Source: an uncultured Ruminococcus sp.
GTDB lineage: Bacteria; Bacillota; Clostridia; Oscillospirales; Acutalibacteraceae
Length of the DNA stretch: 53,889 nucleotides
Reading direction: 5' to 3'
Assembly (NCBI GenBank): GCA_902776185.1
Contig: CACYPH010000010.1
Location: forward strand, 1-53,889
The notes under the pieces are model-generated. The model did no database searches, was not told the DNA's origin, and worked only from the letters and a program-made list of their open reading frames with translations. Made by a program: the position numbers and the translations under genes. Of this stretch, positions 41,788-49,147 are shown piece after piece. How positions within the stretch are numbered: position 1 is the stretch's first letter; every line of letters starts with the position of its first letter.

Positions 41788-41806
41788 CACAAGATGTTGT
41801 GTTTAG
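41788..41806 (+). promoter_or_regulatory. Proximal NrdR-box-like repeat
   Basis: CACAAGATGTTGTGTTTAG, containing the palindrome CACAA-N4-TTGTG. It lies about 15-30 bases past the predicted start site, a place where a bound NrdR repressor would block nrdDG. Confidence 0.5.
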
Positions 41807-41876
41807 GGAATTAACCATTACAAAACAGTTACAACAAATCATCTCAATAAGACAGAAATCAATCAGGAGGATTAAC

Positions 41877-44228
41877 ATGATCAGTAAAATCGTAAAGCGC
41901 GACGGCCGCGCAGTCGAGTTCGATCTCGAGAAAATCACACAGGCGATCTATAAGGCGGCTCACGCCATCGGCGGCAACGACTATGCCGCTGCAGAACAGC
42001 TCGCCGACAAAGTCAGAGAATACCTTGAAGCAGAGGATAACGATACCCCCAGCGTAGAGCACGTACAGGATACCGTTGAAAAGATCCTGATCGAGAACGG
42101 TCACGCGAGAACCGCGAAGGAATTCATCCTTTATCGTGCAGAGCGTACACGCGTTCGCGAGATGAACACCAAGCTGATGAAGATCTACGAGGATCTGACC
42201 TTCAAGTCGGCGAAGGATAACGACGTCAAGCGTGAGAACGCCAACATCGACGGCGATACCGCGATGGGCACCATGCTCAAATACGGTTCCGAGGGCGCGA
42301 AGGAATTCTACCAGATGTATATCCTCAACCCCAAGCACGCCAAGGCGCACCGCGAGGGCGACATCCACATCCATGACCTCGACTTCCTCACCCTGACCAC
42401 CACCTGCTGCCAGATCGACCTGATCAAGCTGTTCAAGGGCGGCTTCTCCACCGGTCACGGCTTCATCCGTGAACCCAACGACATCTCCACCTACGGCGCG
42501 CTGGCTTGCATCGCGATCCAGTCTAACCAGAACGACCAGCACGGCGGTCAGTCCATACCGAACTTCGACTACGGTATGGCTCCCGGCGTTCAAAAGACCT
42601 ACAACAAGCGTTATCGCATGAACCTTGCTCGCGGCGCGGAGCTTCTCTGTGACGATGAGAACGCCAAGGAGGATATCGACGCGATCTGTGACGCGGCAGA
42701 GGAAGCGACCGGCGGCGCTGCAAGCCTCGAATCTCCCGAGGATTACATCAAGAAAGAAAACGAGCTGCTGACAGAAAAGTACGGCGAAAAGCTCGCCGGC
42801 AAGCTGCAGCGCTTTGCGAAAAAGCACGCTGAGGCAGAGACTGACCGCGCTACCTTCCAGGCGATGGAAGCGGTCGTCCACAACCTCAACACCATGCACT
42901 CCCGCGCGGGCGCGCAGGTACCTTTCTCCTCCATCAACTACGGTACCGATACCAGCCCCGAGGGCAGAATGGTCATCAAAAACATCCTGCTCGCTACCGA
43001 GAAAGGTCTGGGCAACGGCGAGACGCCGATCTTCCCCGTACATATCTTCAAGGTCAAGGAAGGCGTCAACTACAATCCCGGAGACCCCAACTACGACCTC
43101 TTCAAGCTCAGCTTCCGCGTTTCCGCGAAGCGCCTCTTCCCCAACTACGCGTTCATCGACGCGCCGTACAACCTCGCTTACTACAAGCCCGGTCATCCCG
43201 AGACTGAAGTCTCCTACATGGGCTGCCGTACCCGCGTCATCGGTAATAAATACGATCCGTCCCGCGAGATCACCTTCGGCAGAGGCAACCTCAGCTTTAC
43301 CTCCATCAACCTGCCCCGTCTCGCGATCCTCGCCAACAAGAACATCGACTTCTTCTTTGAGCAGCTCGACAGAATGCTCGACCTGTGCATCGAACAGCTC
43401 CTCGAGCGTTTCGAGATCCAGTGCCAGAAGTGCGTCCGTAACTATCCGTTCCTGATGGGTCAGGGCGTATGGATCGATTCCGAAAAGCTCTCTATCGATG
43501 ATGAAGTTCGCGAGGTACTCAAGCACGGCACCCTCTCCATCGGCTTCATCGGTCTGGCAGAAACCTTAGTTGCGCTGATCGGTAAGCACCACGGCGAGAG
43601 CGAGGAAGCCCAGCGTCTGGGTCTTGAGATCGTCTCCTTCATGCGCAAGAAGCTCGACAGAAAGAGCGACGAGATGAAGCTCAACTTCACCTGCCTTGCG
43701 ACTCCCGCAGAGGGTCTGTCCGGCAGATTTGTCCGCCTGGACAAAGAGCGCTTCGGCGTCATCAAGGGTGTTACCGACCGCGAATACTATACAAACTCCT
43801 TCCATATCCCGGTTTACTATCCGATCAACGCCTTTGATAAAATCAAGCTCGAGGCGCCCTATCACGCACTCACCAACGCGGGTCATATCTCCTATATCGA
43901 GCTCGACGGCGATCCCACCGAGAACCTTGAGGCATTCGAGCAGGTCGTCCGCTGCATGAAAGAGGAAGGCATCGGCTACGGCTCGATCAACCATCCCGTC
44001 GACCGCGATCCCGTCTGCGGCTATACCGGCATCATCGGCGACTACTGCCCGAAGTGCGGCAGAAAGATCATCAAGAACGGCATGCAGGTAGAGCGCATCC
44101 GCCGCATCACCGGCTATCTGGTCGGCACCCTCGACCGCTTCAATAACGCAAAACGCGCTGAGGAGAGAGATCGCGTCAAACATGAGATCATCCTCGACGA
44201 GTGCGGCTGTGAGTGCGAGTCCGCATGA
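41877..44228 (+). CDS. nrdD: Anaerobic (class III) ribonucleoside-triphosphate reductase
   Basis: 783 residues from the ATG at 41877, which follows CAGGAGG; the frame opens earlier but without a site. It reduces NTPs to dNTPs with an oxygen-sensitive glycyl radical. An N-terminal ATP cone (VKRDGRAVEFDLEKITQAIYKA) allows allosteric control. The core motifs include HIHDLDFLT and the C-terminal zinc site (Cys in PVCGYTG and CPKCGR, about 713-728). The glycyl radical site is G746 in RRITGYL, close to the end. Overlaps nrdG by 4 bp. Confidence 0.97.
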   Translation: MISKIVKRDGRAVEFDLEKITQAIYKAAHAIGGNDYAAAEQLADKVREYLEAEDNDTPSVEHVQDTVEKILIENGHARTAKEFILYRAERTRVREMNTKLMKIYEDLTFKSAKDNDVKRENANIDGDTAMGTMLKYGSEGAKEFYQMYILNPKHAKAHREGDIHIHDLDFLTLTTTCCQIDLIKLFKGGFSTGHGFIREPNDISTYGALACIAIQSNQNDQHGGQSIPNFDYGMAPGVQKTYNKRYRMNLARGAELLCDDENAKEDIDAICDAAEEATGGAASLESPEDYIKKENELLTEKYGEKLAGKLQRFAKKHAEAETDRATFQAMEAVVHNLNTMHSRAGAQVPFSSINYGTDTSPEGRMVIKNILLATEKGLGNGETPIFPVHIFKVKEGVNYNPGDPNYDLFKLSFRVSAKRLFPNYAFIDAPYNLAYYKPGHPETEVSYMGCRTRVIGNKYDPSREITFGRGNLSFTSINLPRLAILANKNIDFFFEQLDRMLDLCIEQLLERFEIQCQKCVRNYPFLMGQGVWIDSEKLSIDDEVREVLKHGTLSIGFIGLAETLVALIGKHHGESEEAQRLGLEIVSFMRKKLDRKSDEMKLNFTCLATPAEGLSGRFVRLDKERFGVIKGVTDREYYTNSFHIPVYYPINAFDKIKLEAPYHALTNAGHISYIELDGDPTENLEAFEQVVRCMKEEGIGYGSINHPVDRDPVCGYTGIIGDYCPKCGRKIIKNGMQVERIRRITGYLVGTLDRFNNAKRAEERDRVKHEIILDECGCECESA

Positions 44229-44746
44229 ATGAACCCAGAACCAAACTGAAACTCGCCGGCGTCGTCCGCGAGAGCATCGTTGACGGACCGGGCATCCGCA
44301 TGACCGTGTTCGTACAGGGCTGTCCGCACCACTGCAAGGGCTGTCACAATGAGCATACATGGGATTTTGAGGGCGGCTACACATCCTCGGTCGAGAGGAT
44401 CTTGGAGGAAGCCGCAAAGGATAAGCTGTTAAAAGGCGTCACCCTCAGCGGCGGCGAACCGTTCTGTCAGGCGCACGCATTGGCAGTACTGGCGAAAAAA
44501 GCCCATGCCATGGGTCTCAACGTCTTCTGCTACACCGGCTACACCTTTGAGTATCTGTACGCACATTTTGACGAGCATCCCGAGTACCGGGAACTGCTCG
44601 AAGAATGTGACTGGCTGGTAGACGGACCGTTCATCGAAGAACAGATGAGCCTGATGCTGCATTTTCGAGGCAGCCGCAACCAGCGCATCCTGAACGTCAC
44701 GGAGTCGCTCGAAAAAGGCGAGGCGGTCTTGTCGGAGATCAATTGA
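44225..44746 (+). CDS. nrdG: Anaerobic ribonucleotide reductase activating protein
   Basis: 173 residues from the ATG at 44225, which overlaps the nrdD stop (ATGA). A radical SAM enzyme that installs the glycyl radical in NrdD. The cluster motif is CPHHCKGC (CX3CX2C), the SAM-binding GGE motif is in TLSGGEPFCQ, and YTGYTFEYL and WLVDGPFIEEQ are typical of NrdG. No terminator with a clean T-run follows; the next 427 bases hold repeats only. Confidence 0.96.
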   Translation: MNEPRTKLKLAGVVRESIVDGPGIRMTVFVQGCPHHCKGCHNEHTWDFEGGYTSSVERILEEAAKDKLLKGVTLSGGEPFCQAHALAVLAKKAHAMGLNVFCYTGYTFEYLYAHFDEHPEYRELLEECDWLVDGPFIEEQMSLMLHFRGSRNQRILNVTESLEKGEAVLSEIN

Positions 44747-45079: not shown

Positions 45080-45108
45080 TTGTGCAGGTGCGGATTTTAT
45101 GGTATAAT
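45080..45108 (+). promoter_or_regulatory. Promoter of the DRTGG/RsbW-like genes
   Basis: TTGTGC (45080-45085), 17 bp, TATAAT (45103-45108), about 65 bases before the start at 45174. A similar stretch, ATGGTATCATAAATTGAATAT, lies before the second SGNH gene at about 50868. Confidence 0.6.
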
Positions 45109-45173
45109 GAATTGAATATAGCGTGATCGCCCCTAATAGCGCGCGCACAGCTTACAACGAAAGGATGTAACAC

Positions 45174-45521
45174 ATGATTGTTAAGGACATTATCGACATA
45201 CTCGACGGAGAAATCATCTGTGAGGGCGACCTCAATCAGGAGATCAAAACCGCCTGCGGTTCGGATATGATGAGCGACGTTCTGGCGTTCGTCAAAGACC
45301 AGAGCGTCCTGCTGACGGGGCTTGTCAACCCGCAGGTCGTCCGCACCGCCGAAATGATGGACATGGCGTGTATCGTATTCGTGCGCGGCAAAATGCCCGA
45401 CCAGGGGATCATCAGCCTTGCCGAAAGCCGCGACATCACGCTGATCAAAACCCGCTACAGAATGTTTACCGCCTGCGGCAAGCTGTATGAGGGCGGGCTT
45501 TCCGGAGGTACCGCGGTATGA
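45174..45521 (+). CDS. DRTGG-domain protein (first copy)
   Basis: 115 residues. MIVKDIIDILDGEIICEGD, then CGSDMMSDVLAFVKDQSVLLTGLVNPQVVRTAEMMDMACIVFVRGK and TLIKTRYRMFTACGKLYEGGL fit the DRTGG domain, a CBS-associated small fold of unknown function found in clostridial hydrogenase operons. A second copy is at 48109-48435. Its end overlaps the RsbW-like gene by 4 bp. RBS GAAAGGATG. It probably senses or binds a small ligand; this is inference. Confidence 0.75.
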   Translation: MIVKDIIDILDGEIICEGDLNQEIKTACGSDMMSDVLAFVKDQSVLLTGLVNPQVVRTAEMMDMACIVFVRGKMPDQGIISLAESRDITLIKTRYRMFTACGKLYEGGLSGGTAV

Positions 45522-45943
45522 GCAGCATCCACCTCCACTATGACGTATCCGGCGAGGACTTCACCCGCGCGGGCGAAGCATCCGGCTCGGTCAAAAAACG
45601 CCTCAAGGCGCTCGGCTATAACACCGACGCTATCCGCAGGGTCGCGATCGCGATGTACGAGGCTGAGATCAACATGGTCATCCATGCCGACGGCGGCTTT
45701 GTCGACGTAGACATCTACCCCGACCACGTAGACATCCTGCTGTCCGATAAAGGTCCCGGCATCCCCGATGTTGACAAGGCGATGCAGGAGGGCTTTTCCA
45801 CCGCGCCCGACAACGTCCGCAACCTCGGCTTCGGCGCAGGCATGGGACTCCCGAATATCAAGAAATACACCGACGATATGCGCATCGAAACCAAGATCGG
45901 CGTCGGTACAGACCTGTATCTGACGGTAAGGGTCAATCAGTAA
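45518..45943 (+). CDS. RsbW-like serine/threonine kinase or anti-sigma ATPase
   Basis: 141 residues, a GHKL/HATPase fold. The N-box is EAEINMVIHADGG, the G1 box DKGPGI and the G2 box GFGAGMGLPNIKKY. The fold belongs to RsbW/SpoIIAB-like proteins that bind a sigma factor or phosphorylate an anti-sigma-factor antagonist. It overlaps the DRTGG gene by 4 bp. No partner STAS or sigma gene is next to it. In clostridial hydrogenase clusters such ATPases are common companions of DRTGG and PHP proteins. Confidence 0.85.
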   Translation: MSSIHLHYDVSGEDFTRAGEASGSVKKRLKALGYNTDAIRRVAIAMYEAEINMVIHADGGFVDVDIYPDHVDILLSDKGPGIPDVDKAMQEGFSTAPDNVRNLGFGAGMGLPNIKKYTDDMRIETKIGVGTDLYLTVRVNQ

Positions 45944-46084
45944 AATACGGTTAACGGATATCGGTTAACAGTTGCAAGAAAGCGCGCACCCGGCGCGTCC
46001 GCTTTCGCATACCCATCGCTCATGCGCGCAGCGTGCAACTGAGCGGGGATTATAAATTGTTTCAGACTGTAGAAAAACCTATGG
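45944..46084. other. Gene-free gap between the RsbW-like and hydrogenase-like genes (first part)
   Basis: No gene is visible. A duplicated CGGTTAAC block lies at 45953-45976, and GAAAGCGCGC with GCGTCCGCTTTC makes an imperfect hairpin at about 45979-46009. The rest of the gap up to 46417 holds the two repeats listed next. Confidence 0.4.
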
Positions 46085-46212
46085 CTGTCATTCTGAGGCT
46101 TTAGCCGAAGAATCTGAAAGCGCTCACATTTCCGTCAGATTGCACATGATAGGTGTAAGATAAGCGGAGAGATTGCACTATAAGATCCTTCGCCTCCGGC
46201 TCAGGATGACAG
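46085..46212. repeat. Inverted-repeat element (CTGTCATTCTGAG ends)
   Basis: The left end CTGTCATTCTGAG...GAAGAATCT is mirrored at the right end (complement CTGTCATCCTGAG...GAAGGATCT). The middle is about 60 bases with no frame. It looks like a MITE-type element. A degenerate copy is at 53686-53756. It interrupts the gap between the two halves of the signalling cluster. Confidence 0.65.
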
Positions 46213-46314
46213 AAGGAAAAGTATCGTCATACTTTTTTGACACGCTGAAGCGCTGACACAAGTGTCCGCATTTTGGACTCCTATTATTCGGGTGCGGGCT
46301 GTGCCTCTCATAAC

Positions 46315-46375
46315 CATTATCCATTTTCCATTATCCATTTTCCATTATCCATTTTCCATTATCCGTTATCCATTC
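46315..46375. repeat. Tandem array of 14-bp unit (two heptamers)
   Basis: Three exact copies of CATTATCCATTTTC (46315-46356), followed by a degenerate copy. Each unit is a pair of related heptamers, CATTATC and CATTTTC, so the basic period is 7 bp. It ends about 40 bases before the hydrogenase-like gene. Confidence 0.8.
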
Positions 46376-46417
46376 ACCAATCCCAAACTCTCTGCATACA
46401 TGATAGGTTAGATAAAC

Positions 46418-47692
46418 ATGAAACAATACTTCCACTCTGTCGAGCTGGACGCGGATAAGTGCTGCGGCTGTACCAACTGTCTCAAGCGCTGCCCCACCGA
46501 GGCGATCCGTATCCATAACGGAAAGGCGCACATCCTCTCTGAGAGATGTATCGACTGCGGCGAATGTATCCGCATCTGTCCGCATCACGCCAAGCGCGCA
46601 CGCTCCAACCAGCTCGAGGATATCGAACAATATAAAATCAAGGTCGCTCTCCCTGCCCCTGCGCTGTTCGGTCAGTTCAACAATCTGGACGACATCGACA
46701 TCGTGCTGACGGGACTGAGGGCTGTGGGCTTTGACTTCATCTACGAGGTCAGCCGCGGTGCGGAGCTGGTCAGCGAGCTGACCCGCAACATGATCCGCGA
46801 CAATCAGCTGAACAAACCGATCATCAGCTCGGCGTGTCCTGCAGTCGTACGACTGATCAAGATCCGCTTCCCGGAGCTGTGCGACAACGTCATGCCCTTA
46901 CTCGCACCCATGGAGGTCGCCGCAAAAATGGCGCGCCGCGAGGTGCGCGGGATGACGGGACTTTCCGACGAGGACATCGGGGTTTTCTTTATCACGCCCT
47001 GTCCCGCAAAGGTCACCGAGATCAACTCGCCGAATCATGCGGATCATTCTGCAGTGAACGGTGCGATCGCGATCTCTCAGCTCTACCCTGCTCTGACCCA
47101 CGCCATGGATCATCTGACCACCGTGGAAAGCATCGCGAAATCCGGTCTGATCGGCGTCGGCTGGGCAACCTCCGGCGGTGAAGCGGCAGCGATGCTGGGC
47201 GAAAAATACTTAGCAGCGGACGGTATTGAAAACGTCATCCGCGTGCTCGAAGAGCTCGAGGACGATCATATCCGCGACGTAGATTTTATCGAGCTGAACG
47301 CCTGCTCCGGCGGTTGTGTCGGCGGCGTACTGACGGTCGAGAATCCCTATGTCGCGCAGGCGCGCATCCACAACCTGCGCAAATATATGCCCGTATCCCT
47401 GAATCATCTGGACGAAAAAGACGTCGACGCCATGAAATGGGAGAACAAGCTGACCTATAACGCAGAGAGCTTTGCCCTCTCGGACGACATCATGGAAGCG
47501 ATGGAAATGATGGACAAGATGGAGAAGATCTGTCAGGATCTGCCGGGGCTGGACTGCGGCTCCTGCGGCGCGCCGACCTGCCGCGCGATGGCGGAGGATA
47601 TCGTCAAGGGCGTCGCCAAGGAAACCGACTGTATCCACAAGCTCAAGGCGAAGATCCAGTCCGTCTATGACCAGCTGAGTTCAACGTTATGA
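46418..47692 (+). CDS. [FeFe]-hydrogenase-like protein, sensory-type H-cluster site
   Basis: 424 residues. Two ferredoxin [4Fe-4S] sites (C15/18/21/25 and C44/47/50/54) precede an H-cluster-type domain. All four cluster ligands are present: C140 in SSACP (L1), C195 in TPCPAKVTE (L2, with K198 and E201), and C296 and C300 in NACSGGCVGG (L3). The proton-transfer cysteine before C140 is replaced by Ala139, and both methionines of L2 and L3 are replaced by Thr193 and Asn294. A C-terminal Fe-S domain has Cx2Cx4Cx16C (C380, C383, C388, C405). These changes match group C/D putative sensory hydrogenases rather than catabolic ones. There is no PAS domain. The next gene overlaps by 4 bp. Confidence 0.85.
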   Translation: MKQYFHSVELDADKCCGCTNCLKRCPTEAIRIHNGKAHILSERCIDCGECIRICPHHAKRARSNQLEDIEQYKIKVALPAPALFGQFNNLDDIDIVLTGLRAVGFDFIYEVSRGAELVSELTRNMIRDNQLNKPIISSACPAVVRLIKIRFPELCDNVMPLLAPMEVAAKMARREVRGMTGLSDEDIGVFFITPCPAKVTEINSPNHADHSAVNGAIAISQLYPALTHAMDHLTTVESIAKSGLIGVGWATSGGEAAAMLGEKYLAADGIENVIRVLEELEDDHIRDVDFIELNACSGGCVGGVLTVENPYVAQARIHNLRKYMPVSLNHLDEKDVDAMKWENKLTYNAESFALSDDIMEAMEMMDKMEKICQDLPGLDCGSCGAPTCRAMAEDIVKGVAKETDCIHKLKAKIQSVYDQLSSTL

Positions 47693-48048
47693 GCAAGGTC
47701 GAATTGACCGTCCGCGAGCGGGAATACATTGACTGCGAAGTCCCGATGCTGTCGGGCGGCACCGCCGCGACGAGGATCATCGGCGCATTTTTTGCCTCGA
47801 TCGGTCAGGCGTTCCTGCCCGGACTGAACAAATCGGAAAGCAAGCTGGTCCGCACCGTCCGCGAGATCCGCTATACCAACTATAAAAAAGCCGTCCTACG
47901 TAAGCTGGAAAACACGCCGAAGAAGGGCGACGATAAGCGCCTGAGAAAGCTCAACAAAAGCGATTTTGTCCTCTCGTTCGAGACCTACGACCCGGATGAA
48001 TTCGCAGAGAAGCTGTATGAGGAATACATGGATAGAACTAAGAATTAG
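47689..48048 (+). CDS. Unknown small protein of the hydrogenase-like cluster
   Basis: 119 residues, not recognised. It starts at an ATG that overlaps the hydrogenase-like stop (ATGA), so it is translationally coupled to it. The N-terminus is acidic (MSKVELTVREREYIDCEVPML), a Gly/Ala/Phe-rich stretch follows (GGTAATRIIGAFFASIGQAFLPGL, about 24-47) that could be a buried helix but is too short and polar for a sure membrane span, and the C-terminal half is highly charged (KKGDDKRLRKLNK). Only one Cys is present, so it is not itself an Fe-S protein. The position suggests a partner of the hydrogenase-like protein. Confidence 0.75.
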   Translation: MSKVELTVREREYIDCEVPMLSGGTAATRIIGAFFASIGQAFLPGLNKSESKLVRTVREIRYTNYKKAVLRKLENTPKKGDDKRLRKLNKSDFVLSFETYDPDEFAEKLYEEYMDRTKN

Positions 48049-48074
48049 GATCTAAGATCTAGGATCTAAGATCT
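48047..48074. repeat. Tandem repeat of 14-bp unit AGGATCTAAGATCT
   Basis: Two exact copies plus a partial third. Each unit is two related heptamers (AGGATCT, AAGATCT), so again the period is 7 bp. It starts at the stop codon of the 119-aa gene and fills most of the gap before the second DRTGG gene. Confidence 0.75.
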
Positions 48075-48108
48075 AAGCTCTAAAGCTCTTCACTCGAAAG
48101 GATTAACT

Positions 48109-48435
48109 ATGACCGTTAAAGAATTAGCTCAGAGGCTCGAACTGAGAACTCTAGTTGAAGACGACTTTGACCGCGAGGTCGAGGACTGCTACGTCGGCGA
48201 CCTGCTCTCGTGGGTCATGGGACGCGCTCCCGCCGACAGCGCATGGCTGACCGTCATGGGCAACATCAACTCGATCGCTGTCGCGACCCTAGCGGACGTC
48301 AGCTGCATCATCCTTGTCGAGAATGCGGCGCTTGACGCGGACGCAAAGGCAAAAGCTGAGATGCACGGCGTGAATATCCTGATCACCGAGAAAAACAGCT
48401 ATCACCTTGCTGTCGAGATCAGCAAACTGCTTTGA
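48109..48435 (+). CDS. DRTGG-domain protein (second copy)
   Basis: 108 residues. MTVKELAQRLELRTLVEDD, then CYVGDLLSWVMGRAPADSAWLTVMGNINSIAVATLADVSCIILVENA and GVNILITEKNSYHLAVEI. It has the same fold pattern as 45174-45521 but clearly diverged (the first has CGSDMMSDVL, this one CYVGDLLSWVM). RBS GAAAGGA. The PHP gene begins one base after its stop codon, so the two are likely coupled. Confidence 0.75.
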   Translation: MTVKELAQRLELRTLVEDDFDREVEDCYVGDLLSWVMGRAPADSAWLTVMGNINSIAVATLADVSCIILVENAALDADAKAKAEMHGVNILITEKNSYHLAVEISKLL

Positions 48436-48436
48436 T

Positions 48437-49147
48437 ATGAAATACTACTACGACCTGCATCTGCACTCGTGCCTGTCGCCGTGCGGAGATATGGATATGA
48501 CGCCCAACAACCTTGTCAACATGGCAAAGCTGCTGGGGCTGGATGTCATCGCCCTGACCGACCACAACACCTCGCTCAACTGTGAGGCGGCGATGAAGGT
48601 CGGCGAGGCGGTCGGCATACTGGTCATCCCCGGAATGGAGCTGACCACCGCCGAGGATATCCACGCGGTGTGCCTCTTCCCCACGCTCGAAAAGGCGCTC
48701 GCATTCAGCGAATATGTGGATAACAACCGCATCAAAATCAAGAATAAAACACAGATCTACGGACGTCAGGTCATCATGAACGAGGACGACGAGGAAGTCG
48801 GCGAGATCGAGCATCTGCTCCTGCCTGCGAGCTTCATCACCATCACCGAAGCCTATGAGAAAGCGAAGGAATTCGGCGGCATCTGCTATCCTGCACACAT
48901 CGACCGTGACAGCCTGTCGATCCTGTCCGTGCTGGGCGAGATCGATCCCGCCTGCGGCTTCAAGACTGCAGAGCTTGCAGATCTCTCAAAGCTCGACACT
49001 CTCAAAGAACAGCATCCGATCCTCAGCGATCTGCACATCGTCAACTGTTCGGACGCGCATTACCTCGAGAATATGCGCGAGGCGCAGAATACCCTTGAGC
49101 TGCCCGCGCTGACAAGAGAAGCGGTACTCGCCGCACTCGACTCTTAG
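48437..49147 (+). CDS. PHP-domain metal-dependent phosphoesterase
   Basis: 236 residues from the ATG at 48437, one base after the preceding stop; no ribosome binding site is visible, so translation may depend on coupling. Four PHP metal motifs are in order: DLHLHSCLSPCG (HxH), ALTDHNTS, the PAHIDR histidine, and NCSDAHY. PHP proteins hydrolyse phosphoesters, often of nucleotides; here it may turn over a small nucleotide signal of the module, which is speculation. PHP genes are frequent in clostridial [FeFe]-hydrogenase operons. Last gene before the secreted FN3-SGNH pair. Confidence 0.9.
   Translation: MKYYYDLHLHSCLSPCGDMDMTPNNLVNMAKLLGLDVIALTDHNTSLNCEAAMKVGEAVGILVIPGMELTTAEDIHAVCLFPTLEKALAFSEYVDNNRIKIKNKTQIYGRQVIMNEDDEEVGEIEHLLLPASFITITEAYEKAKEFGGICYPAHIDRDSLSILSVLGEIDPACGFKTAELADLSKLDTLKEQHPILSDLHIVNCSDAHYLENMREAQNTLELPALTREAVLAALDS

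Follow-up and report, generated by a model that had tools for sequence, protein, structure and literature searches.

The stretch analysed here (the window, 53,889 nucleotides) is the entire contig C10 of G000, an assembly of an uncultured Ruminococcus sp. comprising 1.88 Mb in 74 contigs and 86% complete. Close to its end lie six adjacent plus-strand genes centred on an [FeFe] hydrogenase-like protein, which we report is a group D (M2e, TamHydS-type) putative H2 sensor. We propose that these genes form the front half of a group D-HydABC locus, whose catalytic, electron-bifurcating half (NuoE-HATPase2-Trx-NuoF-HydA) probably lay past two following GDSL-lipase genes and was lost at a repeat-induced contig break. 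A first-pass annotation of this DNA had described the same genes as a compact redox-signalling module without hydrogenase subunits. Its observation of six genes in the order DRTGG, RsbW-like, hydrogenase-like, a protein of 119 amino acids (aa), DRTGG and PHP is confirmed, with Pfam matches for all save the 119-aa protein, while its interpretation is partly supported.

The argument for a missing catalytic half begins with gene order in close relatives. The window reads nrdD-nrdG-DRTGG-HATPase-hydrogenase-119 aa-DRTGG-PHP-GDSL-GDSL-contig end (Table 1), the two genes directly preceding the module (41799-44746) being ones that we take, from their resemblance, to be nrdD and nrdG. In genome G023 (92% identical) the order is nrdD-nrdG-DRTGG-HATPase-HydD-119aa-DRTGG-PHP-GDSL-NuoE-HATPase2-Trx-NuoF-HydA, and G094 (94%) has the same order until its contig stops inside HydA. 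Two further relatives end earlier, L091 (91%) after the GDSL gene and L089 (94%) inside PHP. A GDSL gene at that place is found as one copy each in G023, G094 and L091 and in none of the other kin loci read. The module also follows nrdD-nrdG, with hyd genes after it, in G042 and G037. Among the named loci at least 70% identical (n=32), NuoE follows wherever 2.3 kb or more of downstream sequence is available, save in L091 (20 of 21), and HydA in all 12 with at least 7 kb.

Table 1. Features of the hydrogenase-like gene cluster and its downstream flank in the window.
Feature	Coordinates	Strand	Family match or basis
DRTGG protein 1, 115 aa	45174..45521	+	PF07085, 1.9e-8
SpoIIAB/RsbW-like HATPase, 141 aa	45518..45943	+	PF02518 (HATPase_c), 9e-9
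Group D (M2e) [FeFe] hydrogenase, putative H2 sensor HydS, 424 aa	46418..47692	+	Fe_hyd_lg_C, 8.1e-31
119-aa protein, family not assigned	47689..48048	+	no Pfam/NCBIfam match
DRTGG protein 2, 108 aa	48109..48435	+	PF07085, 7.4e-6
PHP-domain protein, 236 aa	48437..49147 (ATG)	+	PF02811, about 1.2e-9 to 1.3e-9
Two fn3/GDSL-lipase genes, between PHP and contig end	49172..53581	+	Pfam
Dispersed repeat at contig break	53791..53889	+	97% identical to final 99 bases of C48

The contig ends 308 bp past the second GDSL gene, inside a dispersed repeat. The final 99 bases of the window match those of another contig of the assembly, C48 (10114-10212), which terminates at the same base, and the interior of C15 (1048-1165) holds another copy (91%). 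Because C48 ends at the same base of the repeat and C15 holds an internal copy, we interpret the contig end as a repeat-caused assembly break. The absence of NuoE, NuoF and HydA, which the first-pass annotation had singled out as unusual, is thus true of the window but unsupported for the cluster in the genome, since the contig ends first and kin carry these genes; most likely it is an effect of assembly. That annotation had also reasoned that its reading would suffer if homologs always sat with NuoE/NuoF and a catalytic HydA: they do so in the close clade, but not in more distant Clostridia, to which the 18 stand-alone modules among 43 loci overall belong. Caution is therefore warranted with metagenome-assembled genomes (MAGs), in which the make-up of an operon can be misread where a contig ends.

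A wider view of the genus was obtained from 99 genomes besides the window's own, 73 of which carry a group D gene. HydA matches lie on the same contig in 36 of the 73; in 35 the two genes share a strand and HydA comes 5.4-9.4 kb downstream, while in G021 it is divergent. It is on another contig in 25, and in the remaining 12 no HydA match above 300 bits was among those listed. Thirty-three of the 37 loci without a same-contig HydA were read (G028, not annotated, and G011, G049 and G052, with partial hits, were left out), and 31 of these are cut off by a contig end before the locus is complete, 30 within 5.3 kb downstream and G094 at 7.5 kb, inside HydA. A reading of the 12 genomes with no listed match above 300 bits as sensor-only was rejected, all 12 contigs stopping inside the locus. 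A variant order is seen at L082 (G020), where NuoE precedes DRTGG1 and HATPase2-Trx-NuoF follow PHP.

Assignment of the hydrogenase-like protein to group D draws on architecture, residues and phylogeny. Pfam recognises two N-terminal [4Fe-4S] sites, an H-domain and a C-terminal [4Fe-4S] site, and its scan returned no PAS domain in the protein, which separates it from group C HydS. Across 81 aligned sequences (80 named loci and the window), the H-cluster cysteines C140, C195, C296 and C300 are invariant, as are K198, A139 and N294, while T193 is found in 61/81 and E201 in just 35/81. Ala139 occupies the position of the proton-transfer cysteine, and Thr193 and Asn294 those of the two methionines. 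All of these residues are as first annotated, although E201 proves to be kept in a minority of the alignment. The cysteines of the N-terminal clusters (C15-C25 and C44-C54) are conserved in 81/81 and those of the C-terminal cluster (C380/C383/C388/C405) in 80/80. An alternative proton path of group D has been reported in TamHydS of Thermoanaerobacter mathranii, comprising S249, E252, D265 and E289 (PMC10407848). Its equivalents here, placed by a constant offset of 3 from the published positions and not by alignment to the TamHydS sequence, are S252 (74/81) and E255, D268 and E292 (each 81/81).

The best NCBIfam match of the protein is the group B1 model TIGR04105, at 159.4 bits against a cut-off of 450, and the group A model TIGR02512 gave 97.6 bits against 406, leaving it outside both B1 and catalytic group A. 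Phylogeny, proposed earlier as a check on membership of catalytic group A, gave the same answer: in a tree of 31 sequences, without L172, L195 or TamHydS, the window protein falls within a group D clade supported at 100/99. Groups C and D are sisters at 84/76, a grouping in which the tree tool flagged long branches meeting. The labels A, B and C on the tree come from Pfam/NCBIfam, but six sequences and some others were labelled solely by how strongly they matched PF02906 or by their position. Because architecture, residues and tree agree, we place the protein in group D (M2e), the putatively sensory type, and the initial reading of a sensory-type, non-group-A hydrogenase accompanied by DRTGG, RsbW-like and PHP partners is upheld.

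How group D genes are distributed relative to catalytic hydrogenases was surveyed in 194 Clostridia, the window's own assembly among them and the others at least 97% complete, calling group D at E <=1e-60 and HydA at PF02906 E <=1e-80. Group D was found in 85 of the others, and a HydA of group A strength accompanies it in 84, compared with 80 of the 108 lacking group D (Fisher 2.7e-7, relatedness ignored). HydA lies within 12 kb of the group D gene in at least 40 of the 85, and downstream on the same strand in at least 36; among the matches listed, seven of the 85 genomes have HydA farther along the same contig, 31 on other contigs only, and seven have none. The exception to the pairing, G221 (97% complete), has only the group D match, on a contig of 12.5 kb. 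There (L258) and in G199 (L261) the module stands with NuoE-HATPase2-Trx-NuoF, no HydA being adjacent in the stretch read, and the neighbouring genes look like what we take to be an Rnf operon.

These data bear on two other explanations. One is that the catalytic hydrogenase has been lost from the window's genome, leaving the group D protein as the sole [FeFe] hydrogenase, which would sense foreign H2 or act as a slow catalyst. Indeed, that protein is the sole PF02906 match in the assembly and all three maturases are encoded (HydG and HydF on C58, HydE on C48), a lack of which would have told against the first-pass annotation; in G221, too, the group D match is the only one, and NuoE/NuoF and Rnf-like genes stand alongside. 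However, the assembly is 86% complete, the 12 contigs of the genus whose genomes have no HydA match above 300 bits listed are all cut inside the locus, with NuoE or more visible in five and the start of HydA in G094, and near-complete genomes pair group D with HydA in all cases but one; we regard such a loss as very unlikely. The other explanation makes the group D protein an assembly or electron-transfer partner of HydABC/NuoEF instead of a sensor. The strong one-way co-occurrence with HydA is what a partner would give, and so is the retention of group D beside NuoE/NuoF in G199 and G221, but most genomes lacking group D have HydA nonetheless, the module is often unlinked, and the ATPase, DRTGG and PHP proteins look like signalling parts. 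A role as such a partner therefore seems very unlikely.

Several observations weigh against our view of the window as the front half of a group D-HydABC locus with a signalling function. No group A HydA and no NuoF ortholog (best 56%) were found in the 86%-complete assembly, and the intergenic stretch at the contig end gave no blastn match in L064, L065, L088, L090 or L091; because of these two results, the continuation past the contig end is something we infer only. Linkage to HydA is also far from universal: it follows in 25 of the 43 named loci with at least 7 kb downstream and is unlinked in 18. Within the genus, G055 and G087 present two separations of the module from HydA, real or apparent. 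In G055, NuoE-HydA come directly after nrdD-nrdG on one contig (L224/L225) and the module is alone on another, an arrangement that looks like an excision of the module from the site it normally occupies. In G087 (L213/L255), DRTGG1-HATPase-group D gene are followed by 15 kb of unrelated genes, and PHP-like, Trx, NuoF and HydA genes lie on a different contig, a split that reflects either a rearrangement or an assembly error. In addition, the chemistry of the signalling unit, from H2 sensing to contacts between partners, is proposed here from sequence comparison, and a 2026 study of TamHydS saw no reduction of its C-terminal cluster by H2 (PMC13104023).

All 18 unlinked loci are less than 70% identical to the window, a set in which HydA follows in 13 of 31; at L145 and L167 the hyd operon is divergent. 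A search of 20 genomes with no hyd genes beside the module, which also took in three linked genomes, located HydA at group A strength (E <=1e-90) elsewhere in 18 of the 20, matches of group B and C strength in G110, and only the group D gene in G119 (1.4 Mb). G307, G141 and G255 are single-contig genomes whose modules have unrelated neighbours throughout the 20 kb read, and the HydA matches among those listed lie 0.3-1.9 Mb away; in G255 the open reading frame (ORF) of DRTGG2 was not picked in the module. Loci of this kind, G307 and G141 in particular, together with G055, where the hyd operon occupies the place after nrdD-nrdG on another contig than the module, allow for a module that is truly alone in the window's genome too and works in trans, its target HydA being encoded elsewhere and absent from the assembly. 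Yet the window module still follows nrdD-nrdG, where hyd genes come next in G023, G094, G042 and G037, and NuoE stands after the GDSL gene at the same place in G023 and G094. A solitary module is accordingly unlikely in our judgement, and a catalytic half lost at the contig break remains the reading that we prefer.

Whatever its linkage, the five-gene block DRTGG-HATPase-HydS-DRTGG-PHP is near-invariant across the named loci. DRTGG protein 1 is present in 75/75 loci having at least 1 kb upstream of the hydrogenase gene, the HATPase in 78/78 having at least 600 b upstream, DRTGG protein 2 in 72/72 having at least 1 kb downstream, and PHP in 64/64 having at least 2 kb downstream. Taken with the pairing of group D and HydA in near-complete genomes, the unlinked modules suggest a portable H2/redox signalling unit acting on a catalytic hydrogenase, sometimes in trans. 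It is conceivable, and we put it forward tentatively, that DRTGG-ATPase-HydS-DRTGG-PHP is a portable, self-contained H2-signalling unit, its five genes moving together and its ATPase serving as a SpoIIAB-like switch kinase. Such a unit would control catalytic hydrogenases whether encoded in cis or in trans, and would include the signalling partners of the group D protein.

In such a unit the group D protein, once matured by HydEFG, would bind or sense H2 at its H-cluster, and its reduced state or conformation could be read by the co-encoded SpoIIAB-like ATPase. The two DRTGG proteins may be binding partners or effectors, and PHP may be the phosphoesterase that makes, removes or resets a phospho-signal; the output would perhaps adjust how strongly the catalytic HydABC is expressed or how active it is. 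A partner switch of the classical type finds no support, because the six cluster proteins, to which the Pfam/NCBIfam scan for these families was confined within the genome, include no match to a STAS or sigma family. Identification of the interaction partners of group D hydrogenases has been described as critical (PMC13104023, 2026), and four candidate partners in a group D H2-signal relay can now be named, none of them missing from any named locus long enough to show it. As these partners are constant and many genomes, complete chromosomes among them, carry the block apart from HydA, the relay can be tested directly.

The placement of a group D gene upstream of a bifurcating HydABC is already in print. 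TamHydS is encoded upstream of a bifurcating group A hydrogenase and flanked by a histidine kinase (HK)-like ATPase (PMC8163306). As judged from its published description and not from its sequence, it resembles the window protein in its [4Fe-4S] sites (two N-terminal, one C-terminal), in lacking a PAS domain and in a Cys299-to-Ala exchange (PMC8163306, PMC10407848, PMC13104023), in the S249/E252/D265/E289 equivalents, and in the neighbouring HK-like ATPase; its place upstream of HydABC is matched in kin of the window, the window's own contig ending first. The two differ at the methionine positions, Met353/Met497 being replaced by Ser/Leu in TamHydS and by Thr/Asn in the window protein, and in the available text the neighbours given for TamHydS are an AraC-type regulator besides the HK-like ATPase, with no mention of DRTGG or PHP. 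A 2012 survey likewise noted, for several genera, that M2e genes lie upstream of HydABC, and it called them sensory from nearby kinases, the same regulatory proposal as is made here (PMC3561251). In Caldicellulosiruptor, C. thermocellum, C. phytofermentans, Caldanaerobacter and Thermoanaerobacter, these genes lie a few locus tags from HydABC, with kinases near (PMC3561251); by comparison, the window adds GDSL genes and the 119-aa protein, and its HydABC would lie past the contig end. No link of DRTGG/PHP genes to group D hydrogenases was found in the literature searched, which included few subscription papers, and the available parts of PMC10102598 and PMC5886521 make none; nor did that literature present the five genes as a portable unit or mention that they occur unlinked.

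Group C HydS (M2f, with PAS), as in R. albus (PMC11837493) and T. maritima, is a putative sensory [FeFe] hydrogenase like the window protein and belongs to the sister clade. A second sensory system is present in the related genome G099, where one cluster (L199, 1470-5759) combines a PAS-containing group C HydS with a group B hydrogenase and a phosphatase of SpoIIE type; the window, in contrast, has no PAS but a SpoIIAB-like ATPase, DRTGG and PHP, and the phosphatase of G099 could be complementary to the kinase-like ATPase of the group D module. A Vallitalea genome is reported to have a sensory hydrogenase of group C1 beside Rnf (PMC6163223).

As to the individual genes of the cluster, the first of them starts at 45174 and not, as first annotated, at 45080. 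Four-bp overlaps, earlier said to be several, occur at two junctions (45518-45521 and 47689-47692) and no others, and a 474-bp gap (45944-46417) separates the HATPase gene from the hydrogenase gene. The corresponding gap is only about 25-55 bp in G047, G023 and G094. In the window it holds three copies of TTTTCCATTATCCATT spaced 14 bp, one of them with a mismatch. The HATPase scored 51.7 bits with TIGR01925, under the cut-off of 135, and 29.4 of 155 bits with the RsbW model, and its nearest PDB chains are SpoIIAB (1.8e-8). Its conserved residues E48, N52, D77, G79, G81, G104, G106, G108 and G110 presumably take part in ATP binding. The PHP gene is given a TTG start at 48407 in the ORF list. 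Its product conserves H8, H10, D42, H43, E68, H76, H154, D206 and H208, which we take to be metal ligands, and is a probable metallo-phosphoesterase, active as these His/Asp/Glu motifs hint.

The 119-aa protein, which matched no family in Pfam or NCBIfam, was seen only in kin of the window: it occurs in the window's sub-clade and, weakly, in G039, and in 10/80 of the named loci. It evolves fast, with 42-76% identity where the group D protein has 82-94%, and 33% in G039. Its AlphaFold model is all-helical and poor, with a mean predicted local distance difference test (pLDDT) score of 62.

An Rfam scan of the window gave zero matches, and a promoter/terminator scan returned consensus matches only, somewhat more than in shuffles. 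Outside the window, a NuoF/HydA-like set at 72-77 kb of contig C1 was considered as the missing operon and rejected, for it consists of NuoE, NuoF and GltD-like genes with no H-domain, its NuoF-like protein being 56% identical to Hyd NuoF. This set (L203, G000:C1:72238-76689) resembles non-hydrogenase bifurcating complexes. The closest named records to the window are MAGs of uncultured Ruminococcus or Clostridiales, among which ruminant isolate names are frequent.

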